From an uncultured Burkholderiales bacterium (GTDB taxonomy: Bacteria > Pseudomonadota > Gammaproteobacteria > Burkholderiales > Burkholderiaceae_C): a DNA stretch of 64,000 bases. Shown piece by piece: positions 10,147 through 27,633 of this stretch (position 1 is the first letter of the stretch; the number at the start of each line of letters is the position of its first letter). A program made the position numbers and the translations under genes. Below the pieces are notes generated by a model. The model was not told the DNA's origin and made no database searches. It saw nothing but the letters and a program-made list of their open reading frames with translations. The DNA lies in NCBI GenBank assembly GCA_945952065.1, contig CAMFGY010000001.1, positions 310,001 through 374,000 on the forward strand. The letters are read 5' to 3'.

Positions 10147-12084
10147 CTACCAGCGTGTGTCCAGCGTCAGCGCCAGCAGGCGGCCGGGCCGTTCGGCATA
10201 GCTGCCGCTGCCGCGCAGCTCGTAGCTGCGGCGATTCAAGGCATTGCTGAGCAGCACGCGCAGGGCTGAAGGCTGGGCGCCGAGCTGGAAGGGCCAGCGC
10301 AGGCCCAAGTCCAGCTCGGTGATGGCGGGCAGCTCGACCTGGTTGTCGCGAGTGGCGGGCATGGGGCCGTTGTGGGTCAGACCCGCGTCCAGGCTCAGGC
10401 CGCCCAGGGCGGCGGGCCGCCACACGGTGTTGAGCTTGAAGACCCGCTCGGGCTGGCCCACCGGCCGGGCACCCACGCGACCCAGGCTGACGCCCTCGCC
10501 CAAGACGCGCGGCCGCATCAGCACCGCGCCGCCCACCAGCTGCCACTCGGGCGCCGGCTGGCCGTTCAGCGAGAGCTCCACGCCGCGATGCCGGACCTCG
10601 CCCAGCTCGGTGAAGAGCTGCTTGGCATCGAGGTTGTAATAAGGCTTGCTGACTTCAAAGACCCCGGCCACCAGCTTCATCTTGGGGTGCAGCTGCCAGC
10701 GCAGACCGGCATCGTGCTGCGAGGTCTTGATGGCGGGCATGGCCTGGTTGCGGTTGCTGGCATTGCCCGGGGCCACGCCGCTTTCTTCCAGGCCATGGGT
10801 CAGGCCGGCGTAAAAGGCCAGCGTGGGGCTCCAATGCCAGGCGGCGCTGAGGTTGTAGAGCAAGGGCTGGTCGGTGGTCTCGGCCTGCGGCTGCTCGGGG
10901 CGGCTGACGCGTTTGCGGTAATGGGTTTGCTGCACGCCGGCGTTCAGCTCCAAGTGCTGCGCCCAGCGCAGCTCATAGGCCAGGCCCAGCCAAGTCTGGC
11001 GCACCTCGTCGCGGCTGCTTTTGTCCGAGAAATTGAACACCGGCTCGGGGGGCTGGAAGGACGCGGTCTGGCTCACGCGGCCGTAATCAAAAGTCTGCGA
11101 ATCCCCCAGGCGCCGGTCGCGCGCGCGGCCCGCAGCCTGCAGATGCAGACGCTGCGCCCAGGGCGCCGGGCTGAAGGCCCAGCTCAGACGCACTTCGCCG
11201 CTGTCGGAGGCGACCTTGCTGGGTGCATCGGCAATGATCAGGCGCTGCGCCGTGCCGTCGGGGCTCATGTTCAGCAAGAGATTGCTGAAGCCCGCCCGGT
11301 CATCAAACTCGGAGTGAAACAGGCCAGCCCGCACTTGCCACTGCGCATCAAAAGCATGGCGCAGCAGGCCCCCGAAATTGCGCCCGGTGCCGCGGTAGCT
11401 GGCCCAGTCGGGCCCTTGAAATTTGCGTTGCTCGCCCAGCGGCGGCAGCTCGGCGCCAGCGCTGGAGACCTGCGGGCCGGTGCGGTCAAACGGAGTGTCG
11501 ATGGCGGAGGCGAACACCATGGCCTCGGTGTTGTGCTGCGGCCGCCACCACAAGGCCAGGCTGCCGGTGCCATAGCGGCCATTTGTGCCATTGGTGTACT
11601 CCGGCAAGCCCAGCGAGACCCCGCCGGTCAGGGCCAGCTGGCCTTCGACCAGGTTTTGATTGAAGTCCAGATCCAAATACTTCGCGCCCCAGCTGTCGGC
11701 GGTGAGCATCAGCTGGCCGCTGCTGCGCCCGTCTTCATGCGGGCGGCGCAGGCTGTAGTCGACGATGCCGGTGGGCGCCGGGAAGGCAAAGCCCTGGGCC
11801 GACAGACCGACCCGCACCCGGCTGGACTCGCGCAGCCGCGCACTGATGCCCCAGACCTGGTCGAAGTACAGGCCCTCCACCCGCACATTGCCCGCCGCCG
11901 TGGGTGAGAAGCCGCGCACGCTGCTGCTGGTGTAAAGGCCAATGGTCTCGCGGCCAATGCTGGTGCCAAAGGCATCGTTGGCGGCTTGCACGGCGGCGTC
12001 ATTGGCTTGGGCGCTCAGGCTCAGGGCCGCGAGGCTCAGGGCGAGAGTCGTCGGCAGGGCCGGGGCTGGAAATCGAAACGTCAT
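10147..12084 (-). CDS. TonB-dependent outer-membrane receptor
   Basis: 645 residues with a signal peptide (about 1-27, ending SAQA). An N-terminal plug region (about 30-150: SIGRETIGLYTSSSVRGF, FDQVWGIS) precedes a long beta-barrel ending in aromatic LALTLDTRW, the usual C-terminal assembly signal. The ligand cannot be told; no siderophore genes are adjacent. The start at MTFRFP is chosen for the signal peptide; upstream in-frame codons to 12165 look non-coding. Convergent with the DUF3034 gene. Confidence 0.85.
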   Translation of the reverse strand: MTFRFPAPALPTTLALSLAALSLSAQANDAAVQAANDAFGTSIGRETIGLYTSSSVRGFSPTAAGNVRVEGLYFDQVWGISARLRESSRVRVGLSAQGFAFPAPTGIVDYSLRRPHEDGRSSGQLMLTADSWGAKYLDLDFNQNLVEGQLALTGGVSLGLPEYTNGTNGRYGTGSLALWWRPQHNTEAMVFASAIDTPFDRTGPQVSSAGAELPPLGEQRKFQGPDWASYRGTGRNFGGLLRHAFDAQWQVRAGLFHSEFDDRAGFSNLLLNMSPDGTAQRLIIADAPSKVASDSGEVRLSWAFSPAPWAQRLHLQAAGRARDRRLGDSQTFDYGRVSQTASFQPPEPVFNFSDKSSRDEVRQTWLGLAYELRWAQHLELNAGVQQTHYRKRVSRPEQPQAETTDQPLLYNLSAAWHWSPTLAFYAGLTHGLEESGVAPGNASNRNQAMPAIKTSQHDAGLRWQLHPKMKLVAGVFEVSKPYYNLDAKQLFTELGEVRHRGVELSLNGQPAPEWQLVGGAVLMRPRVLGEGVSLGRVGARPVGQPERVFKLNTVWRPAALGGLSLDAGLTHNGPMPATRDNQVELPAITELDLGLRWPFQLGAQPSALRVLLSNALNRRSYELRGSGSYAERPGRLLALTLDTRW

Positions 12085-12189
12085 AGGTTTGCGGGCCGAC
12101 TCTGGCGCGGCCGCCTGGGGTTCATGGGCGCCTTGGCGCAAAGCCGCGCAGTCTAGGTGATCCACCGGCTGGGCGCGAAAGTCAGGGCA

Positions 12190-12798: not shown

Positions 12799-12912
12799 GG
12801 CGCGCATTGTCTGCGCAGGCGCTCGGCTCTGTGGCCCCGTCTTGATCTACCGCAAGACCAAGCCGGCCGCGCCGCCCGAGACTGGCGGCAGCTTCACCCT
12901 GGACTGCGCTGC

Positions 12913-14181
12913 ATGAAATTGACGCCCTCGACATGGCTTCACGGCTTGGGATGGAAATCCTCTGGGGCGCTGCTGGCCGTGCTGCTGGGCGGCTTGCTGA
13001 TCGCTTGGCGCAGCTGGCAGGGCCCGGAGGTGAGCACCGAGCGGGTACTGCGGCGCGACTTTGTGCAGTCGGTCGTGGCCAGCGGACGGGTCGAAACGCC
13101 GCACCGGGTGGACATTGCCGCGCAGATCACCGGCACCGTGGCCCGCGTGCCCGTGGCCGAGGGGCAGTTTGTCGAGGCCGGGGCCGTCTTGGTGGAGTTG
13201 GAGTCCAGCGAGTTGCGCGCCAGCCAGCGCCAGGCCGAGCTGGCGGTGCGCCAAGCCCAAGCGCGGCTGCGCCAGGTGGCCGAGCTGCAGGCGCCGGTGG
13301 CCGAGCAGCAGCTGCGTCAGGCCCAAGCCAATTGGTCCAATGCGCAGGCCCAGATGCGGCGCCAGCAAGCGCTGTTTGAGCAAGGTTTTATTGGCGAGGC
13401 CGCCCTGGACCAAGCCCGCACCGCCCTGGTGTTGGCCGAGTCACAGTGGCGCCTGAGCCAAAAGCAAAGTGAATCGCTGCGCCCCAGCGGCAGCGACCAT
13501 GCCCTGGCCGAAGCCGCACTGGCCCAAGCCCAGGCCAGCGCCGAGGCCGCCGCTGCACGCAGCCGTTATGCCCGCATCCTGGCGCCCAGCGCCGGCACCT
13601 TGATCGCCCGCGATGTCGAGGTGGGCGATGTGGTGCAGGCGGGCAAGCGCTTGCTGATCTTGTCGCCCGAAGGGCGCAGCCAGCTGGTGTTGAGCATCGA
13701 CGAACGCCATCTGCGCTTGATCAAGCCGGGCCAAAAGGCGCTGGCTTCAGCCGATGCCTACCCAGACCAGCGCTTTGCTGCCGAGCTGGTCTACATCAAC
13801 CCCGGCGTCAATGCACAAACCGGCGCCGTCGAAGTGAAGTTGAACGTCCCCCAGCCATCCGCCACGCTGAGCCAGGACATGACGGTGTCGGTGGACATTG
13901 AAGTGGCGCGCAAACCGCAGGCGCTCTTGCTGCCGCTGACCGCGGTGCATGAGCCCAACAGCGCCCAGCCCTGGGCGCTGCGGCTGGATGCCGACCAGCA
14001 CCTGAGCCGCCGCGAGCTGCGCCTGGGCTTGCGCAGCGGCGGCTATGTGGAGCTGCTCGCGGGCTTGGACGAGGGCGACACCGTGGTGCTGAGCCATGAA
14101 GCCGTGGCCGCCGGGGCACGGGTGCGCCCCAAGCCCGCAGCGGCCAAGCCCGGCGCCGCGCCGCTGGCCAAGCTGCCATGA
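12913..14181 (+). CDS. ABC exporter membrane fusion protein (HlyD/MacA family)
   Basis: 422 residues. One N-terminal membrane helix (about 17-33), then a lipoyl/barrel-sandwich half (VDIAAQITGTVARVPVAEG), an alpha-helical hairpin rich in Ala and Gln (about 95-210), the second lipoyl half (ILAPSAGTLIARDVEVG) and a beta-barrel/MP domain. It would link the FtsX-type permease encoded next to an outer-membrane channel. The ATG at 12913 gives the membrane helix; the long open frame upstream overlaps the Nudix gene antisense and is not coding. First gene of a three-gene operon (39-base gap to the next). Confidence 0.88.
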   Translation: MKLTPSTWLHGLGWKSSGALLAVLLGGLLIAWRSWQGPEVSTERVLRRDFVQSVVASGRVETPHRVDIAAQITGTVARVPVAEGQFVEAGAVLVELESSELRASQRQAELAVRQAQARLRQVAELQAPVAEQQLRQAQANWSNAQAQMRRQQALFEQGFIGEAALDQARTALVLAESQWRLSQKQSESLRPSGSDHALAEAALAQAQASAEAAAARSRYARILAPSAGTLIARDVEVGDVVQAGKRLLILSPEGRSQLVLSIDERHLRLIKPGQKALASADAYPDQRFAAELVYINPGVNAQTGAVEVKLNVPQPSATLSQDMTVSVDIEVARKPQALLLPLTAVHEPNSAQPWALRLDADQHLSRRELRLGLRSGGYVELLAGLDEGDTVVLSHEAVAAGARVRPKPAAAKPGAAPLAKLP

Positions 14182-14219
14182 GGGTCGCCGCCTGAACCGC
14201 TGGGCTGAAGCCGCACTGT

Positions 14220-15503
14220 ATGAACCGCCAACTGCCGTCCTATCTGCCTTTTGAATGGATCGTGGCCCTGCGCTTTTTGCGCGAGGGGCGCTTGCAAACG
14301 CTCTTCATCATCGTGGGCGTGGCCATTGGCGTGGGCGTGATCGTGTTCATGTCGGCGCTGTTGTCGGGGCTGCAGGGCAACTTCATCCGGCGCGTGTTGT
14401 CGGCGCAAGCGCATATCCAATTGCTCCCACCGCAGCAGCTGACGCGGGCCCTGCGTCCGGCGACGCCCACGGAGCAGCCGGGCGCCATCGTTCAGCCGCC
14501 CTTGCAAAAGCTCAAATCGATGGACCAATGGCAGGCCGTGGCCGCGCAGGTGCGCAGCACCCCCGGCGTGCATGTGGTCTCGCCGCTGGCCAATGGCTCG
14601 GCACTGCTGCTGCGCGGCAATGCCAGCCGGGCCATCGCCATCAACGGCATCGAGCCGGAGCTCTACTACCGCATCGTGGACCTGCAAGACAAGCTGGTGC
14701 GCGGCCAAGCCCAGATCAATGCCACCGACATCTTGATCGGGGTGGATTTGGCCACCGACCTGGGCGTCGACGTCGGCGACAAACTGCGGCTGAGCACCGC
14801 CAGCAACAACACGAGCAACAACACGAGCGCCAGCAGCGCTGCACCCGTCAACATCAGCACCCTGAACATTGCCGGCATTTTTGACCTCGGCAACAAGGGC
14901 GCCAATCTGCGCAGCACCTTTGTCACCCTGCACACCGCGCAAAGCCTGCTGGGCCTGCCGGGCGGCGTCACCAGCCTGGATGTGACGGTGGCCGATGTCT
15001 ACGCGGCCGAGCGCATCGCTCAGCAGATTGCCGCCAGCACCGGGGTCGAGGCGGACAGCTGGATCAAATCGAGCGCTCAGTTTTTCTCGGCCATCAGCGC
15101 GCAGACCACGGCCAATACGGCGATTCGATTCTTCGTCGGCCTGTCGGTGGCCTTTGGCATCGCCAGTGTGCTGGTGGTGGTGGTGGTGCAGAAGTCGCGC
15201 GAAATCGGCATCTTGCGGGCCATGGGCATTTCGCAGGCGCAGATCCTGCGGGTGTTTTTGCTGCAAGGCGGTTTGCTGGGCCTGGGCGGCTCACTGGCAG
15301 GCAGCGCCATCGGCGCGCTCGCCTTGTTGCTGTGGCAGCGCTATGCCCGCAATGCCGATGGCACGCCGCTGTTTCCGCTGGTGTTCGAGCCAGGTCTGTT
15401 CGCCATTGCCTTGCTGCTGGCGACCCTGACCGGCTTGATCGCAGCCTTTGCACCGGCGCTGCGCGCGGCCCGGCTGGACCCGGTGGTGGCCATCCGTGCT
15501 TGA
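14220..15503 (+). CDS. ABC transporter permease (FtsX/MacB type)
   Basis: 427 residues. TM1 at about 23-45 ([18 protein letters not shown]), a large periplasmic domain (46-295), and three C-terminal helices (about 300-325, 342-372, 392-415), the standard four-helix MacB/LolCE layout. An in-frame 12-base tandem repeat inserts a Ser-Asn-Asn-Thr pair at residue ~195 in the periplasmic domain. Together with the flanking fusion protein and ATPase it makes a MacAB- or DevBCA-like exporter. The substrate is unknown. Confidence 0.9.
14802..14825 (+). repeat. 12-base in-frame tandem repeat in the permease gene
   Basis: AGCAACAACACG occurs twice head to tail and is followed by AGC, encoding SNNT-SNNT-S in a periplasmic loop of the permease. 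Slippage here would change the loop by four residues without frameshift. Confidence 0.85.
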
Positions 15504-15504
15504 A

Positions 15505-16230
15505 ATGCCGCCCTCCATGCCTGCGGGGCTGGCCGCCACGGCAGCCGAGCGCGACGAGATCGTGCGGCTGCATGCAGTGCGCAAAGTCTTCAACCCCGGC
15601 ACCGCCATCGAGGCCGAGATCCTGCACGGCATTGACCTGACGCTGCACCGCGGCGAGTTCTGCGCGGTGATGGGCCCTTCGGGTTCCGGCAAAAGCACCT
15701 TGCTGAATATCGTGGGGCTGTTGGACCGCCCCAGCAGCGGCACCCTGGCCATCTGCGGGGAAGAGACCACCGCGCTGGACGACCCGGCGCTGACCCGCTT
15801 GCGCGGCCACAGCATCGGCTTTGTGTTCCAGTATCACCACCTGATTACCGCCTTCACCGCGCTGGAAAACGTGATGATGCCCATGCTGGGCGCGGCGGGC
15901 TTCCCCGATGCGGCCATGTACGAGCGGGCGCAAGCGCTGATCGCCAGCGTCGGCCTGACGCCCTGGCAAGACCATCTGGCCGGCAAGCTCAGCGGCGGTC
16001 AGCAGCAGCGGGTGGCCGTGGCGCGCGCCCTGGCCATGAAGCCTGCACTCTTGCTGGCCGATGAACCCACCGGCAATCTCGACACCAAGAGCGCCGACGC
16101 GGTGTTTGAGCTGCTGCGCCGCGTCAACCGCGAGCAGGGCACGGCCATCCTCTTCGTCACCCACAACCCCGAACTGGCGGCGCGCTGCGACCGCACCATT
16201 CAGGTGATCGACGGCATGGTCAGCGGCTGA
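15505..16230 (+). CDS. ABC transporter ATP-binding protein (LolD/MacB type)
   Basis: 241 residues with Walker [10 protein letters not shown], signature [14 protein letters not shown], Walker [13 protein letters not shown] and the switch His (THNPEL). The sequence belongs to the lipoprotein/macrolide-export ATPase family, which pairs with FtsX-type permeases. The start ATG at 15505 is one base past the permease stop (TGAAATG), so translation is probably coupled; an ATG at 15517 is an alternative. Last gene of the exporter operon, convergent with gstA. Confidence 0.92.
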
Positions 16231-19750: not shown

Positions 19751-19891
19751 GCCAGGGTCGCCGGTCCTGACGCTCACCGAACCGAGCCGAACCGGGCCAA
19801 GCCGGGCTGAATCGGAGGGAAACGATGCTTTGGCACCACGCTGACTTGATGGAAGACAAGCTTTCACGAAGTTCCGTCAATCGATGCAGAT

Positions 19892-19910
19892 GCGAATCGT
19901 TATCATTGCT
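19892..19910 (+). promoter_or_regulatory. Candidate Fur box before the di-heme peroxidase operon
   Basis: GCGAATCGTTATCATTGCT matches the 19-base Fur consensus at 11 positions, including the ATCATT half and the AAT of the other half. It lies 22 bases before the ATG at 19933, where a bound repressor would block transcription. The binding is inferred. Confidence 0.5.
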
Positions 19911-19932
19911 TTATTCAATTCAGTTCTTTGTC

Positions 19933-21168
19933 ATGCAGCTTTTTCCATCGAAAGCCCGCTCGGCGGGCCGTCTGCTGCCTCTTGCCCTGGCGGCCTTGTT
20001 GACGGCCTGCGGCGGCGGCAGCGGCGGCCCCAGTGCCGACGCCCAGCCCAGCACCGGCAGCAGCAGCGCCAGCAAGGACGGCGAGCGCAGCGCCCAGGCC
20101 CTGCTGGGCGAAAAAATCTTCAAGGATGTGTCGCTGTCCGCCTCAGGGCGGCAGGCTTGCATCAGTTGCCACGCGCCGGAAACCGGCCACGCGGGTGCCA
20201 ACACCTTGTCAGCCCAGCTGGGCGGCGCGCTGCTCGACCAGCAAGGCGGGCGCAGCTCGCCCGGCATGCGCTATCTGGCCAGCAACAAGCCCTTCCAGAT
20301 TGCCGCCGACGGCACGCCCAGCGGCGGCTTCTTTTGGGATGGCCGCGCAGGCTCTTTGCAGGAGCAAGGCACCAAACCCTTTTTGAACCCCAAGGAAATG
20401 GCCAATCTCGACGCGGCGGACTTCACCCGCCGTTTGGCCAAGGCCGATTACGCCGCTGAGCTGCGCCAGATGTTTGGCGCCGACTTCTTTGACAAGCCCG
20501 AGCAGGCGCTGCAACGCGCCGGCCTGTTGCTGCAGGTCTTTCAGCTGGAGTCCAGCGAGTTCCGCCCTTTCAGCAGCAAGTTTGACGAGGTGCTGCGCGG
20601 CCGCGCCAGCCTGAGCGAGCAGGAGCTGCGCGGCCTGGCCCTGTTCAACGCCAAAGACAAGGGCAATTGCGCCGCCTGCCACCCATCTGCCAAAGGCGCC
20701 GATGGCAGCTTCCCTCTGTTCACCGATTTCACCTATGACAACCTGGGCGTGCCGCGCAACCTCAAGCTGAGCCAGAACGCCGACCCGGCCTTTTTCGACT
20801 TGGGTCTGTGTGCGCGCGATGGGGGCGACTTGGCCGGCAAGCCCGAGCTGTGCGGCAAGTTCAAAGTGCCCTCGCTGCGCAATGTGACGCTGCGCAAGGT
20901 CTTCTTCCACAACGGCAGCTTCAGCTCGCTCAAAGAGGTGCTGAACTTCTACGTCAGCCGCGACACCGATCCGGCGCGCTGGTATTCGCGCAATGCTGAC
21001 GGCAGCATCAACCGTTACGACGATGTGCCCGAGGCCTACAAGGCCAATGTCAACGTCAAAGAAGGCCCCTACAACCGCAAGCCCGGCGAAGCCCCGGCCC
21101 TCAATGAGGCCGAGATCGACGATGTCTTGGCCTTCTTGGCCACGCTCAGTGATGGCTACAAAAAATAA
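19933..21168 (+). CDS. Di-heme cytochrome c peroxidase, MauG/CcpA family, lipoprotein
   Basis: 411 residues. The ATG at 19933 gives a lipoprotein signal (LAALLTAC; Cys about residue 21). Two c-type heme sites: C76-C79-H80 (CISCH) and C246-C249-H250 (CAACH), in the two-domain layout of bacterial di-heme peroxidases; LRNVTLRKVFFHNG and the C-terminal DDVLAFLATL match the family. It would act in the periplasm, anchored in a membrane. First gene of an operon with a porin, an FMN-binding protein, ApbE and a membrane protein, all behind a candidate Fur box, so a role in iron-limited redox chemistry is likely; the substrate is unknown. Confidence 0.9.
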   Translation: MQLFPSKARSAGRLLPLALAALLTACGGGSGGPSADAQPSTGSSSASKDGERSAQALLGEKIFKDVSLSASGRQACISCHAPETGHAGANTLSAQLGGALLDQQGGRSSPGMRYLASNKPFQIAADGTPSGGFFWDGRAGSLQEQGTKPFLNPKEMANLDAADFTRRLAKADYAAELRQMFGADFFDKPEQALQRAGLLLQVFQLESSEFRPFSSKFDEVLRGRASLSEQELRGLALFNAKDKGNCAACHPSAKGADGSFPLFTDFTYDNLGVPRNLKLSQNADPAFFDLGLCARDGGDLAGKPELCGKFKVPSLRNVTLRKVFFHNGSFSSLKEVLNFYVSRDTDPARWYSRNADGSINRYDDVPEAYKANVNVKEGPYNRKPGEAPALNEAEIDDVLAFLATLSDGYKK

Positions 21169-21214
21169 GCGCCCTGAGCGCGCCACGTTCTCTATGTCTG
21201 CCCCGCATTTCCCC

Positions 21215-22531
21215 ATGAAAAACCGCCTGACCCTCTCCCCCCTCGTGCTCGCCCTCAGCTTGGGCTTGAGCGCCGTGAATGCCCAGGCCCAAAGCGCCAG
21301 CGAACAAGAGCTGATGCGCCGGCTCGACCAGTTGGCGGCCGAGCTGAACAAAGTGCGCGCCGAACTGGGGCAACTGCAACAACAACAGCAGCAACAGCAA
21401 CGGGCGGCCGAAGCCAGCAAGGCCCAAGCCAGCAGCGCCGCCGCAGCCGCCCCCAGCACCGCCATTGAAGCCGAGCGGCGCGCCGAGCCCAGCACCGTGC
21501 TGGGCGGCTATGCCGAACTGAACTACAACCGCCCACGCACGCACAGCCAAGATGCCCAGGCCGATCTGCGCCGCTTGGTCTTGTCGCTGCAGCACCGCGT
21601 CGATACCAAGACCAAAATCGTCACCGAGATCGAGCTGGAGCACGGCGTCAGCAGCGCGGGCGATCCAGGCGAGGTGGCCATCGAGCAGGCTTACGTCGAA
21701 CATCAGCTGACACCCACCTGGGCGGTGCGCGGCGGTCTGTTCTTGATGCCCATGGGGCTGCTGAACGAAAACCACGAGCCGCCGGCCTTCTTCGGCGTGG
21801 AGCGCAATTTCGTCGAGACCGCCATCATCCCCAGCACTTGGCGCGAAGGCGGCTTCCAGCTGGTGGGCAATTTCGACAACGGCATCACCGTGCAAGGCGG
21901 CCTGTCCACCAGCTTTGACCTGAACAAATGGAACGCCAGCGCCAGCGAGGGCCGTGAGTCGCCGCTGGGCGCCATCCACCAAGAGATGGCGCTGGCCAAA
22001 GCCCATGACCTGGCCTGGTTCGGCGCGCTGAACTGGCGCGGCATCCCCGGCCTGCAACTGGGCGGCGGTGTGTTCAGCGGCCAGGCCAGCCACAAGCAGG
22101 CAGCCGCCGATGCCCGCATCACGCTGTGGGACTTGCACGCCCGCTGGACGCCCGGCCGCTGGGACCTGAGCGCGCTCTACAGCCGTGGCAGCATCTCCAA
22201 CACCGCGCGCCTGAATGCGCCGCTGGTCGGCGGCAACACGCTGATCCCCAAGAGCTTTGAGGGCTGGTATGCCCAGGCGGGCTACAAGCTGTGGGAGCAC
22301 GCCAACTACGCGCTGCTGCCTTTTGTGCGCTGGGAGCAATTCAACACTGCCAGCGGCTACGCCGATTTGGGCCAGGGCCTGACCCCGGCGGCTCAGCCCC
22401 ATGAACGCGTCATCACCCTCGGTGCTAACTTCAGAATTGCACAGGGCGTGGTGCTGAAGACCGATGTGCAGCGCTTCCGCGAAAACAAGGAGGGCGACCG
22501 CTTCAACCTCGGCGTCGGCTGGAGCTTCTGA
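21215..22531 (+). CDS. Porin-like outer-membrane protein with N-terminal coiled coil
   Basis: 438 residues. Signal peptide (1-26, ending AQAQ), a coiled-coil with a run of eight Gln (LGQLQQQQQQQQRA, about 48-61), an Ala-rich linker, then a beta-barrel starting VLGGYAELNYNRPR and ending FNLGVGWSF with terminal Phe. The coiled coil suggests a trimeric, peptidoglycan-linked porin of the phosphate-selective/OprP-like type. An in-frame ATG at 21194 is possible. It lies 46 bases after the peroxidase gene and its stop overlaps the next start (TGATG). Confidence 0.8.
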   Translation: MKNRLTLSPLVLALSLGLSAVNAQAQSASEQELMRRLDQLAAELNKVRAELGQLQQQQQQQQRAAEASKAQASSAAAAAPSTAIEAERRAEPSTVLGGYAELNYNRPRTHSQDAQADLRRLVLSLQHRVDTKTKIVTEIELEHGVSSAGDPGEVAIEQAYVEHQLTPTWAVRGGLFLMPMGLLNENHEPPAFFGVERNFVETAIIPSTWREGGFQLVGNFDNGITVQGGLSTSFDLNKWNASASEGRESPLGAIHQEMALAKAHDLAWFGALNWRGIPGLQLGGGVFSGQASHKQAAADARITLWDLHARWTPGRWDLSALYSRGSISNTARLNAPLVGGNTLIPKSFEGWYAQAGYKLWEHANYALLPFVRWEQFNTASGYADLGQGLTPAAQPHERVITLGANFRIAQGVVLKTDVQRFRENKEGDRFNLGVGWSF

Positions 22532-23097
22532 TGCGCCTCCATCTGGCGCCGGTCACTGCGCTCGCGGCAAGCGCCTGCGTGGTCATGGCCACGGCGCCGA
22601 GCAGCGCCTTTGCCGTGGACTACTTGAGCGCCGAGCAGGCCGCCAAGCTGCTGTTCCCGGAGGCGGACCGCTTCGAGCCGCGCGACTTGAACCTGGATGC
22701 CGATCAGCTGCAGCAGTTGCGCCAAACCGGCATCAAGCCACGCAGCGCCCGCTGGGCCCTGCGTCTGGCCTGGCGCGGCAAAGACTTGCTGGGCGTGGTG
22801 GTGGCCGATGAGGTCTTGGGCAAGTTCGAGCTGATCAGCTATGCGGTCGGCCTGGGGCAAGACGGCCGCGTGCGCGGCGTCGAGATCCTGTCTTACCGCG
22901 AAAGCCACGGCCATGAGATCCGCCTGCCCGCTTGGCGCAAACAATTCGTCGGCAAGAACGCGGCCGCGCCGCTGCAGGTTGGCGAAGACATTGCCAATAT
23001 CAGCGGCGCAACGCTGAGCTGCAGCCATGTGGCCGAAGGCGTCAAACGCATCGTGACAGTGCTGGACCTGGCCCGGCGCAACGGCCTCTTGGCCTGA
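22531..23097 (+). CDS. Periplasmic FMN-binding domain protein
   Basis: 188 residues with a signal peptide (about 1-28, ending AFA). The FMN-binding domain ends with DIANISGATLS: Thr161 in the SGAT motif is the residue to which ApbE attaches FMN through a phosphoester bond in this family (established for NqrB/C- and RnfG-type domains). The gene starts on the last base of the porin stop and is followed 9 bases later by apbE, so modifier and target are encoded together. It would carry electrons in the periplasm. Confidence 0.9.
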   Translation: MRLHLAPVTALAASACVVMATAPSSAFAVDYLSAEQAAKLLFPEADRFEPRDLNLDADQLQQLRQTGIKPRSARWALRLAWRGKDLLGVVVADEVLGKFELISYAVGLGQDGRVRGVEILSYRESHGHEIRLPAWRKQFVGKNAAAPLQVGEDIANISGATLSCSHVAEGVKRIVTVLDLARRNGLLA

Positions 23098-23106
23098 ACC
23101 CCGGCC

Positions 23107-23868
23107 ATGCAAGTGCCGCCCCTTGATGCCGCAGCGGCGCAGCGCCGCGCCCGGCCCCTGCTGGGCACGCTGGTGGAAATCAGTCTGCCGGCCGAGGCGC
23201 CAGCCGCTTTGTTTGAGCGGGGCTTTGCGGCCATCGCCGCGGTGCAGACAGCGTTGTCACGCTTTGAGTCGGGCAGCCTGATCGCGCGCTTCAATGCCGC
23301 CGCGGCCGGCACGGCACTGACGGTGCCGGCTTCCAGTCTGCGTCTGCTGTGGGTGGCCCAGTCACTGCAAAGGGCCAGCCACGGCCTGTTTGACCTCAGC
23401 CAGGGCAGCGGCCTCGGCCCGGATTGCGGCTGGCAGCTGTGCGCCGGCCAATTGCACAAGCTGCAAGCCGAGACCCAGCTGGACCTGGGTGGCATTGCCA
23501 AAGGCTGGGCCGTGGACCTCGCCCTCCAGGCTTTGCGCCAGGCTGGAGCCACCTGGGTCTGCGTCAACGCGGGCGGCGATTTGCGGGTGAGCGGGCCGCG
23601 CAGCGTCAGCCTGCGCCTGCGCGACGAGCGCAGCGGCGGCGTGCGCGAGTTTGGGCGGCTCGAGCAAGGCGCTTTCGCGACCAGCCACTTTGCCCCCGGC
23701 AGCCGCAGCCGTTTGAGCGGCAAGCGTTCCGAGGGCAGCGCCTGCCATGTCAGCGTGGCCGCGCCGCGCTGCCTCTGGGCCGATGCGCTGACCAAAGTCG
23801 TCGCTGCCAGCGGCGATACTGCTCACCCCTTGTTGGCGCGCCTGGGCGCTCAAGCCTGGCTGCACTGA
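23107..23868 (+). CDS. apbE: FAD:protein FMN transferase (ApbE)
   Basis: 253 residues, somewhat short for ApbE. It has PLLGTLVEISL at the front, LDLGGIAKGWAVD and NAGGDLRVSG (FAD binding) and DALTKVV (Mg2+ site) near the end. The enzyme splits FAD and transfers FMN to Thr in extracytoplasmic proteins; the FMN-binding protein upstream is the obvious substrate. Canonical ApbE is exported, but I see no signal peptide with this start (MQVPPLDAAAAQR), so either export uses an unusual leader or flavinylation occurs in the cytoplasm. Confidence 0.9.
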   Translation: MQVPPLDAAAAQRRARPLLGTLVEISLPAEAPAALFERGFAAIAAVQTALSRFESGSLIARFNAAAAGTALTVPASSLRLLWVAQSLQRASHGLFDLSQGSGLGPDCGWQLCAGQLHKLQAETQLDLGGIAKGWAVDLALQALRQAGATWVCVNAGGDLRVSGPRSVSLRLRDERSGGVREFGRLEQGAFATSHFAPGSRSRLSGKRSEGSACHVSVAAPRCLWADALTKVVAASGDTAHPLLARLGAQAWLH

Positions 23869-23906
23869 GGCTCAGGCAAAACCTGACCCCGTAAACCATC
23901 TCCGCT

Positions 23907-24350
23907 GTGACTCCGCCGCTTTTCTTACTGAAACTCCCACGCTGGCAAAAGCGCTGGTTCTACCTGGGCTTTGGCCTGCTGCTGGGCAGCGGTCTGGCTT
24001 GGTTGTGGATTCATCTGGGCCGAGCTGAAGACGCCCTGCCCTCACCCGCCGAACCTTGGCTGATGCGCCTGCATGGCCTGGCCAGCTTCCTCACCCTGCT
24101 GGCCCTCGGCGCCATTGGCGGCCAGCACATTCCAGCCGGCTGGAAGCTCAGCCGCAGGCATCGGCGCACCCGGCAACGCAATACTGGCCTGCTGCTGAGC
24201 ACCCTGCTGAGCCTGACGGTGTTGACGGCCTATGTGCTGTACTACTTCGCCCCCGAGGGCCTGCGCGATCCGCTGGGCTGGGCGCATGCGACGCTGGGGG
24301 CGTTGGCGCTGACGGTTTGGTGGCTGCATCGGCGTCGCAAAAGGCCCTGA
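23907..24350 (+). CDS. Four-helix membrane protein with conserved-type His pairs
   Basis: 147 residues. Four predicted helices at about 18-38, 54-75, 94-114 and 123-141. His56 and His74 flank helix 2, and His127 and His141 lie 14 residues apart in helix 4, the spacing of heme b ligands in many membrane cytochromes. I infer a possible b-type cytochrome that passes electrons across the membrane to the flavinylated protein; I do not recognise a named family. GTG start, 38 bases after apbE, same operon. Confidence 0.6.
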   Translation: MTPPLFLLKLPRWQKRWFYLGFGLLLGSGLAWLWIHLGRAEDALPSPAEPWLMRLHGLASFLTLLALGAIGGQHIPAGWKLSRRHRRTRQRNTGLLLSTLLSLTVLTAYVLYYFAPEGLRDPLGWAHATLGALALTVWWLHRRRKRP

Positions 24351-25544: not shown

Positions 25545-27401
25545 TCAATGCCCTTGGGCGGCCCGCGCATTTTGCTGGTCCAGCCAGAGCTTCAAGGGTG
25601 CGAAGTAGTCGATCAAGGCGCTGCCGTCGAGCTGGGTTTCACCCGTCATGGCCTGCAGCGCTTGCGGCCAAGGCTTGCTGGCGCCCAGGGCCAAGAGGGC
25701 CTGAAATTTTTGCCCAGCTTTTTGATTGCCAAAGATCGAGCAACGGTGCAGCGGGCCGGTGTAGCCCGCCTCGCGGCACAAGGCGCGCTGAAACTGAAAC
25801 TGCAGCAGGTGCGCCACAAAGTAGCGTGCATAGGAGGTATCGGCCGCGACGTGGTACTTGGCGCCCGCGTCAAAGCCCTCGGCCTGCCAGGGCACGGGTC
25901 GCGAAATGCCCTGATAGCGTTCACTCATGGACCACCAGGCTTTGTCAAAGTCTTGCGGCTTGATCTGGCCGGCATAGACCTGCCAGCGCCACGCATCCAC
26001 CTTGTAGGCAAAGGGCAAGAAGGACACTTTGGCGAGCGCCTGCTTGAGCAGGTTGTCGATGTCGTCGCCGGGGCGATCGTCGGCCTTCATCAAACCCACG
26101 GTTTGCAAATAGCTCGGGGTGATGGACAGTGCCACGGTGTCGCCAATGGCCTCATGAAAACCGTCATTGGCCCCGTTGCGGAACAGGACAGGCTGCGCCC
26201 GGTAGGCCAGGTTGTAGTAGACGTGACCAAGCTCGTGGTGGATGGTGATGAAGTCCTCTTCATTCGGGCGGATGCACATCTTCACCCGAACGTCCTGCTG
26301 CAAGTCAAGGTCCCAGGCCGAGGCGTGACACACCACTTCGCGGTCTTGCGGCTTGGTCAAAAGCGAGCGCTCCCAAAAGCTCGGGGGCAAAGCCTGCATG
26401 CCCAGCGAGGTGTAGAAGGCCTCGGCAAACTGCACCATGGCTTTGGCGGACACGCCGCGCTGCACCAAGGCTTGGCTCAAATCAAAATCGCCGGCTTGGG
26501 TGTCGGGCTTGACCAGTAGGTAGATGTTCTCCCAGCTCTGGCTCCACATATTGCCCAAGAGGTGCGCCGGGATCGGCCCGGTGGCCGGCACCAAGTCCGG
26601 CCCATAGGTCTGACGAAGCTTGTGGCGCACATAGGCATGCAGCGAGTCGTACAAAGGCTTGACTTGCTGCCACACCCGCTCCAAATCCGCGGCGAAGGCC
26701 TCGGGACTCATGTCATAGCCTGAACGCCAGAGCGCACCGGTGTCTGCATAGCCCATGGCGCGTGAGCCCTTGTTGGCGAGGGCCACAAAGTCCACATAGT
26801 CTTGCTTGTAAGCCTTGGCCTGCGCATGCCAACCAATCCAGGCGTCCTTCAGCTGCTCAGGATCACGGCTTTCCGCCATGATTTTTTCAAGCGCATCCAA
26901 GGGCAGGCACACCCGCTCGGCCCCTGGGCTCGGCTGCGGGCAGTACTTGGCCATGCCGTAGGCGCCGGTCATGCGGCTGGCCAATTGGGTGAAGCGGGCG
27001 CGCTCCTGGTCATTCGGAATCATCAGGGTGCGCTGCATCAGCTGCAGCTTTCTGGCGGTCTCCTCTGGCAGCTTCTTCAAGCCCTGATACGACCTGGCCG
27101 CCAAGGCGATTTCACCGTTGGCTTTGAGCAGGGCTTCATTGGCTTCGGCGCTGATCTGCTGGGTGTCCTCCGTGATGAAGTTCTGCGCCACCCAATCGGC
27201 GCGCTGCGCTTTGATCTGCAGCGCTTCCAGGCGCGCTTCGGCCTGCTGCACAAAGCGCTCGGCTTCTTGGACGCTTGGCGCCTTGCGTGTGCCTGCCTTG
27301 GGCCCGGATTGCCCTCCGGCCGCAAGCAGAGGCGAATGGCCAAGTGCGAAGAGAGCCACAGCCGCAAGTGAGTTGCGGATCAACGGGCGAGAACGATGCA
27401 T
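25545..27401 (-). CDS. M2 family peptidyl-dipeptidase (ACE-like)
   Basis: 618 residues. Signal peptide (about 1-27, ending LAAG) and an all-helical M2 domain. The zinc site is H389-E390-L-G-H393 with the third ligand in GFHEAIGD about 25 residues on; WYRRL-type and YFVAHLLQFQFQ segments fit the family. Bacterial ACE homologues cleave C-terminal dipeptides from peptides in the periplasm. The start at MHRSRPLIRN gives the signal peptide; frames upstream to 27626 are not coding. Confidence 0.9.
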   Translation of the reverse strand: MHRSRPLIRNSLAAVALFALGHSPLLAAGGQSGPKAGTRKAPSVQEAERFVQQAEARLEALQIKAQRADWVAQNFITEDTQQISAEANEALLKANGEIALAARSYQGLKKLPEETARKLQLMQRTLMIPNDQERARFTQLASRMTGAYGMAKYCPQPSPGAERVCLPLDALEKIMAESRDPEQLKDAWIGWHAQAKAYKQDYVDFVALANKGSRAMGYADTGALWRSGYDMSPEAFAADLERVWQQVKPLYDSLHAYVRHKLRQTYGPDLVPATGPIPAHLLGNMWSQSWENIYLLVKPDTQAGDFDLSQALVQRGVSAKAMVQFAEAFYTSLGMQALPPSFWERSLLTKPQDREVVCHASAWDLDLQQDVRVKMCIRPNEEDFITIHHELGHVYYNLAYRAQPVLFRNGANDGFHEAIGDTVALSITPSYLQTVGLMKADDRPGDDIDNLLKQALAKVSFLPFAYKVDAWRWQVYAGQIKPQDFDKAWWSMSERYQGISRPVPWQAEGFDAGAKYHVAADTSYARYFVAHLLQFQFQRALCREAGYTGPLHRCSIFGNQKAGQKFQALLALGASKPWPQALQAMTGETQLDGSALIDYFAPLKLWLDQQNARAAQGH

Positions 27402-27577
27402 ACGCTTCCTTGATCGGTTCAGAACAGTGCCAAGCCAAGGGCTCACTGCGCGCCAAGGCCGGTCAAGGCCCGGATCACCCACCGGGCACACAAAACATCG
27501 GCGATTGTGACCGCTCCATCGCCCGGGCCCGGATGGCCTGCACCCGAGGCATTCCAAATGCGCTTGCTTCCGGCCAT

Positions 27578-27633
27578 GTAAAGCATGCTTTACAAGCCCC
27601 AAAGAACTCGCTACATTGGAAAGCATGCTTTAC
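27578..27633 (+). promoter_or_regulatory. Promoter flanked by twin AAAGCATGCTTT operators
   Basis: Two copies of the palindrome AAAGCATGCTTT lie at 27580-27591 (within the 16-base perfect palindrome GTAAAGCATGCTTTAC at 27578-27593) and 27620-27631, 40 bases apart centre to centre (about four turns). Between them sits a strong sigma-70 promoter: TTTACA (27589-27594), 17 bases, TACATT (27612-27617). The small XRE protein encoded second in this operon is the likely ligand, giving autorepression by binding both sites. Confidence 0.7.

Follow-up and report, generated by a model that had tools for sequence, protein, structure and literature searches.

The window, as the whole stretch analysed here is called, is 64,000 nucleotides of DNA from an uncultured Burkholderiales bacterium (assembly GCA_945952065.1, contig CAMFGY010000001.1), and the subject of this work is a five-gene operon within it that probably answers to Fur and may encode an electron-transfer system of the cell envelope. 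Its genes are labelled A to E in order of transcription, and all features are collected in Table 1. The original prediction, made from the letters of the window, had placed five same-strand genes with small gaps or overlaps at 19892..24350; the coordinates are correct, and the unit is kept in 65 of 80 relatives. The start of C shares one base with the stop codon of B, and the remaining gaps measure 9–46 base pairs (bp). The first three genes had been called a lipoprotein di-heme peroxidase with two CxxCH sites, a coiled-coil porin, and a protein that binds flavin mononucleotide (FMN) and carries the motif SGAT at Thr161, and profile matches, motifs and a structural model agree with all three of these predicted identities. 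A MaoC-like gene lies 23 bp downstream of E; no match to it was found in the 14 loci L020–L033.

Table 1. Features of the operon and its predicted products, in window positions.
Feature	Position	Strand	Basis
Fur-box-like operator AATGATAACGATTCGCA	19891..19907	-	Pattern match, 25 bp ahead of the A ATG at 19933
Five-gene operon A-B-C-D-E	19933-24350	+	Sequence and open reading frames; Pfam and NCBIfam assignments
A, BthA/MauG-type di-heme c lipoprotein	19933..21168	+	Pfam CCP_MauG, E-value 2.4e-30
First heme c site CISCH, A residues 76-80	20158..20172	+	Sequence; columns conserved
Second heme c site CAACH, A residues 246-250	20668..20682	+	Sequence; columns conserved
B, 16-strand outer-membrane porin with N-terminal helix (coiled coil)	21215..22531	+	Porin_O_P, E-value 6.5e-8
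C, exported FMN_bind protein	22531..23097	+	FMN_bind, E-value 2.4e-8
SGAT flavinylation site, C Thr161	23002..23013	+	G159, A160 and T161 invariant, 14/14
D, leaderless ApbE-like protein, altered active site	23107..23868	+	ApbE, E-value 3.8e-26
E, four-helix predicted di-heme cytochrome b	23907..24350	+	Four invariant His; model with a predicted local distance difference test (pLDDT) of 85
E His56, predicted periplasmic-side heme ligand	24072..24074	+	121/121
E His74, predicted cytoplasmic-side heme ligand	24126..24128	+	121/121
E His127, predicted periplasmic-side heme ligand	24285..24287	+	121/121
E His141, predicted cytoplasmic-side heme ligand	24327..24329	+	121/121

A scan of GTDB species genomes returned 457 relatives of C, and the 80-locus counts in this text use the best 80 of the 457; the gene-order profiles were built from nearer relatives. 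All five genes occur once each and in order at 57 of the 80 loci, or at 65 when split hits are merged, and at the remaining 15 at least one gene is missing on that strand, several of these loci lying at contig ends. D and E are on the opposite strand at one locus (L057). A is present with B in 72 of the 80 relatives, most of which are betaproteobacteria, going by their record titles; the five-gene loci include Roseateles, Azohydromonas, Acidovorax, Ideonella, Massilia, Duganella, Rugamonas, Undibacterium, Derxia and Ralstonia. An Ideonella dechloratans plasmid bears five consecutive such genes, annotated as cytochrome c peroxidase, hypothetical, FMN-binding, FAD:protein FMN transferase and hypothetical. 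Judged by gene order in relatives, the A–E arrangement exceeds chance.

The distribution is patchy: C is matched in 13 of 59 genomes related to the source genome and in 4 of 18 genomes of its genus, the source being included in both counts. Within the order, 399 genomes were searched with profiles; 68 of them matched E and 87 matched C, in part weakly, and E lies at most 3 kilobases (kb) from C at 59 of the 67 places with a strong C match (at least 170 bits), with D adjoining both in most loci. Across the phylum, 14 of 398 genomes match E, including the source genome and six of its order. C-D-E also occurs without A, often beside another outer-membrane barrel; C-D-E is the core of the system, and A is an addition to it. 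The source genome itself has a second C-D-E copy (L030:2793-4517, on G000:C33) adjoining a Tn3-type transposase gene, and this copy lacks a porin, a peroxidase and a good Fur site.

The predicted model of E consists of four long helices, and a structural second look placed di-heme bundles at the top. By a positive-inside reading, its N-terminus, the loop between helices 2 and 3 and its C-terminus would be cytoplasmic. Since four His residues are invariant in all 121 sequences, E is predicted to be a di-heme cytochrome b. His127 and His141 had been singled out earlier as spaced like heme b ligands; both stay in the assignment, but two hemes are now predicted, with His56 and His74 as the added ligands. 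Among 13 members of the E family, 6 match PF14358 (DUF4405) and 4 match PF01292 (prokaryotic cytochrome b561) at an E-value of at most 1, the best values being 2.7e-5 and 8.9e-11 respectively, and the window E matches neither at that threshold.

In 77 of the 80 relatives, a crude hydropathy test finds a hydrophobic segment at the N-terminus of C, which lacks a twin Arg. The Asp that starts the motif D-x-x-[ST]-G-A-[ST] is Ala in 68 of 79 C sequences and Asp in one, and SGAT is conserved. D, the ApbE-like protein encoded next, keeps the fold motifs GG-AKG (GG(I/V)AKG) and NAGGD and has Ser193 in 115 of 118 sequences and Asp226 in all 118, features that it has in common with canonical ApbE.

In A, the Cys of the lipobox LTAC (Cys26) is found in all 75 sequences aligned there, and a stricter motif search recovers it in 58 of 70. 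A Gly at position +2 after the lipobox Cys is a sign of outer-membrane sorting, and its presence in A suggests that this lipoprotein is sorted to the outer membrane. The closest solved relative is BthA of Burkholderia thailandensis (PDB 6nx0, E-value 1.2e-74), followed by MauG (a mutant chain, 7.7e-46; 3l4m, 2.6e-45); the di-heme enzyme 6e1c also matches (2.2e-18). A has in common with BthA the Tyr-His six-coordinate heme, the Glu and the disulfide Cys pair: Tyr340, which the 6nx0 alignment equates with BthA Tyr463, the Tyr ligand of the six-coordinate heme, is present in 77 of 77 sequences, the acid-base Glu155 in 75 of 76, and Cys293 and Cys307, the BthA-specific pair, each in 75 of 75. The inter-heme residue is Trp in 46 of 75 sequences, Arg in 20, His in 7, Leu in 2 and Ser in none, and the window A has a MauG-like Trp135 at the place of BthA Ser257; A is BthA-like elsewhere but, by that residue, is not a BthA orthologue. 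The gene of BthA adjoins a phosphatase gene (PMC6405878), whereas A is a lipoprotein within a flavin operon. BthA is described as forming a bis-Fe(IV) state and as a very good peroxidase once supplied with electrons (PMC6405878).

An enzyme of this class could also act on protein, in that A, working like MauG or MbnH, would oxidise residues of B or of another partner, with C, D and E resetting its redox state. The Tyr-His heme and the MauG and 6e1c matches of A fit this idea, as do its best NCBIfam match, the MbnH family, at a score far under the cut-off, and its pairing with B. However, B is found without A at two loci (L031 and L032), and the inter-heme Trp of MauG is kept only in the 46 sequences counted above; I consider a modifying role very unlikely.

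The predicted model of B has a helix at residues 28–73 followed by 16 long strands, and the closest known proteins are OprP/OprO-type porins and DcaP (PDB 2o4v, 4rjw, 6eus), with which it has the 16-strand barrel in common. At the two loci without A, the B-family porin stands with an FMN_bind gene and a PepSY_TM protein (L031:5903-8921) or with FMN_bind, a Fer4_5 (NapH-like) protein and an E-like gene (L032:7071-10730); the C proteins of both retain the Asp of the flavinylation motif. A different barrel appears elsewhere: at 12 of 18 further E loci C comes after a frame of some 300 codons, and all ten of those scanned are DUF6662, two of them with an additional outer-membrane-barrel match under the cut-off. 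The rest of the 18 include loci with B, and one (L188) has both. Among 150 genomes of the order, 10 have DUF6662, in every case at most 3 kb from C. Neither B nor DUF6662 stands directly upstream at L028, at L029 or at the source genome's own paralogue L030; with one or the other in most loci, an outer-membrane barrel is thus the usual, though not a universal, partner of C-D-E.

The site upstream of A is the sole match to the Fur-box-like sequence in the window at three mismatches or fewer, where 0.01 would be expected by chance. The strict pattern AATGANAANNATTNNCA has two sites in the genome of 5.27 megabases and its reversed control has none; the second is flanked by an AraC-type gene and a TonB receptor gene and sits 12 bases ahead of the likely ATG of the receptor, whose mechanically called open reading frame starts earlier, at a TTG. 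Of eight close relatives, most have a similar site ahead of A, and no convincing one was found there at L024. The DNA ahead of A could be scored at 66 of the 80 loci; the remaining 14 lacked a usable A or had too short a stretch before it. Across these 66 the best match to the textbook Fur 19-mer averages 12.95, and 1000 shuffled consensuses average 10.91 (standard deviation 0.27) and all stay below 12.95. At the DUF6662-type loci (12, ten of them scanned), with gene starts that are approximate, the mean score is 12.58, above all 200 shuffles (11.58, standard deviation 0.30). FUR-family genes in the source genome come to a single match. Fur control of this operon type is likely; the Fur box proposed in the original prediction gains support from the scores of the relatives, from its near-uniqueness genome-wide, from the second site at the TonB receptor and from the single FUR-family gene.

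These elements can be joined into one scheme, in which repression by Fur would confine an envelope electron-transfer system to iron limitation. E would take up electrons, with quinol as the most likely donor because none of the five genes codes for an NAD(P)H-binding partner, and would pass them across the membrane over two b hemes, from that of His74/His141 on the cytoplasmic side to that of His56/His127 on the periplasmic side. From there they would reach C in the periplasm, at the covalent FMN that D would load. A path from quinol over two hemes b to FMN is likely by analogy with PepSY-, MsrQ- and DUF4405-type systems. C, working with the outer-membrane barrel (B here, DUF6662 elsewhere), would most likely reduce a substrate that comes in by the pore and is ferric or otherwise carries iron; this is favoured because an outer-membrane barrel is the usual partner and control by Fur is probable. 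Ferric reduction is a plausible role, and for ferric or heme reduction the Fur box is the one direct pointer. Where A is present, C would also feed this outer-membrane-anchored BthA-type di-heme enzyme, a step from FMN to di-heme suggested by the gene order, and A would remove hydrogen peroxide at the site of Fe(II) production. Computation gives directly the gene order, the conserved Fur-like sites, the four invariant His, the SGAT site, the BthA-class residues and the porin fold. The proposal as a whole, with an iron-bearing substrate reduced under iron limitation and A acting on peroxide, is tentative, and I would give it slightly less than an even chance.

Peroxide reduction may instead be the main purpose, and this comes close behind the reduction of an iron-bearing substrate. 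Quinol electrons would then run through E and the FMN of C to A, which would reduce hydrogen peroxide, B merely admitting the substrate, and such a quinol peroxidase would stand in for cytochrome c donors at times of scarce heme iron. The peroxidase residues of BthA are kept in A (Tyr340, Glu155 and the Cys pair), the activity of BthA when given electrons is high (PMC6405878), and A accompanies most relatives. A peroxiredoxin gene (AhpC-TSA, 1-Cys type; L172:7316-7921) adjoins E in one distant relative, which weakly favours a link to peroxide. On the other side, C-D-E and an outer-membrane barrel also occur together where A is missing, so that peroxide is unlikely as the general substrate, and the apparent control is by Fur and not by a peroxide regulator. 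I regard a dedicated quinol peroxidase as somewhat unlikely. In another distant relative the gene after E (L174:6344-6757) encodes a Rieske [2Fe-2S] protein, which could be a further redox partner.

Several observations weigh against iron-substrate reduction under Fur control. A four-heme system would be an odd choice under iron limitation. When the whole locus is searched, the Fur site is best or tied best in 54 of the 66 loci, but the reversed consensus scores in 36 of 66, and 30 shuffles average 19 and range up to 42. No good Fur site was found at several loci, L181, L183, L187 and L030 among them, and over 22 loci together the mean Fur score is 12.14, where the best of 200 shuffles gives 12.18. 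TonB receptors are near only 6 of the 80 loci, and the A–E operon contains no iron transporter gene.

The remaining objections concern D. The window D has no signal peptide, with an in-frame stop 9 bases ahead of its ATG, and the catalytic-His loop HxxDP (His257 in Vibrio cholerae) is absent from 111 of 118 D sequences, that of the window included; of the seven positives, one (L039) looks spurious. A lipobox is found in none of 78 D sequences, and the 14 of 78 that pass a crude hydropathy threshold do so through the fold stretch RRA-PLLGTLVE or a split hit. Canonical ApbE has a signal peptide, a His257-type loop and a Thr at Asp+4, whereas D lacks the first, mostly lacks the second and has Lys at Asp+4 (Lys230, 118 of 118, compared with Thr in L162, L164 and PDB 4xdt). 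The conserved residues of ApbE are given as Ser241, His257 and Asp285, with His257 as the general base, and most characterised ApbEs are lipoproteins, a cytoplasmic Klebsiella ApbE serving a soluble fumarate reductase (PMC12052999). The export and catalytic features of D thus fall outside the usual definition of ApbE, and the assignment of the fourth gene to apbE holds for its profile match and fold motifs but must be qualified for an atypical, leaderless protein that has mostly lost its His loop.

One alternative is that D is no FMN transferase, C binding FMN weakly or being loaded by another ApbE. The altered sequence of D is in keeping with this. So are the C proteins, 78 of 79 of which have lost the motif Asp, and the further ApbEs of the source genome, two of which (L162 and L164) keep the His-DP loop. 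Yet Thr161 is invariant, a change of the motif Asp to Ala is reported to have only minor effects with the Klebsiella enzyme (PMC12052999), and the D-type gene is the sole ApbE match in 13 of 24 chosen genomes (two-piece matches of one gene being counted once). D is readable in 11 of these 13 and lacks the His loop in 8, the other 3 having it (G110, G259, G377). Non-covalent or trans-loaded flavin is quite unlikely; either D flavinylates C in some other way, which might precede export, or the flavin of C is non-covalent in those genomes.

Returning to the favoured scheme of iron-substrate reduction, its inner part has published counterparts. The flavinylation-associated membrane cytochromes of the PepSY-, MsrQ- and DUF4405-like types have in common with this operon a four-His cytochrome, an extracytosolic FMN protein and apbE, and transfer from a transmembrane cytochrome to covalent FMN is reported there (PMC8238504, PMC11334425). 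PepSY-like clusters are described as having a link to iron and being under Fur repression, as this operon may be (PMC8238504), and a DUF4405 cytochrome is reported to bind heme b; DUF4405 cytochromes have six helices, and E has four (PMC11334425). Compared with these systems, the operon adds a BthA-type enzyme, a porin or DUF6662, and the leaderless D. The words "peroxidase" and "porin" were not found in the main texts of the two papers, and literature searches, judged mostly by title and abstract, returned no paper describing an operon that combines cytochrome and FMN with a BthA-type enzyme, a porin and Fur. The original prediction had called its arrangement not clearly described, which needs correcting for the cytochrome-to-FMN step and stands for the combination in the literature searched. 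The word DUF6662 was likewise not found in that literature.

Other envelope systems resemble the scheme by description. FpvG is reportedly a membrane protein that feeds periplasmic iron reduction. This trait is shared by the extracytosolic ferric reductases VciB (PMC8238504) and FoxB, a PepSY-like heme protein (PMC11334425). Unlike in VciB, FoxB and FpvG, electrons here would pass through a covalent FMN protein, with a dedicated outer-membrane barrel as part of the system.

Two points are unusual, namely a BthA-type enzyme as a possible end point and an ApbE that is leaderless and mostly without its His. In a bolder form of the scheme, this ApbE would attach FMN in the cytoplasm, before Sec export and by a route other than that of periplasmic ApbE, within a widespread Fur-controlled module of barrel, flavin protein and di-heme-b reductase whose A-containing version extends the path to the BthA-type enzyme; I think this unlikely. 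If the scheme is true, BthA-type di-heme enzymes, the function of which is stated to be undiscovered (PMC6405878), would have a dedicated physiological electron route, and the uncharacterised DUF6662 and a porin family would be tied to flavin-based iron metabolism. It also raises the question of how FMN gets onto an exported protein if the single ApbE match of a genome has no export signal and usually no general base.

Elsewhere in the window, a gene for a TonB-receptor barrel (10147-12165, minus strand) adjoins a MacB-type permease gene, and its neighbours at about 12900-16230 (plus strand) also include, by their sequence, HlyD-type and ATPase genes; together these look like a metallophore or peptide uptake-export pair. 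A peptidase M2 gene (angiotensin-converting-enzyme family, E-value 2.4e-218) occupies 25545-27626 on the minus strand.

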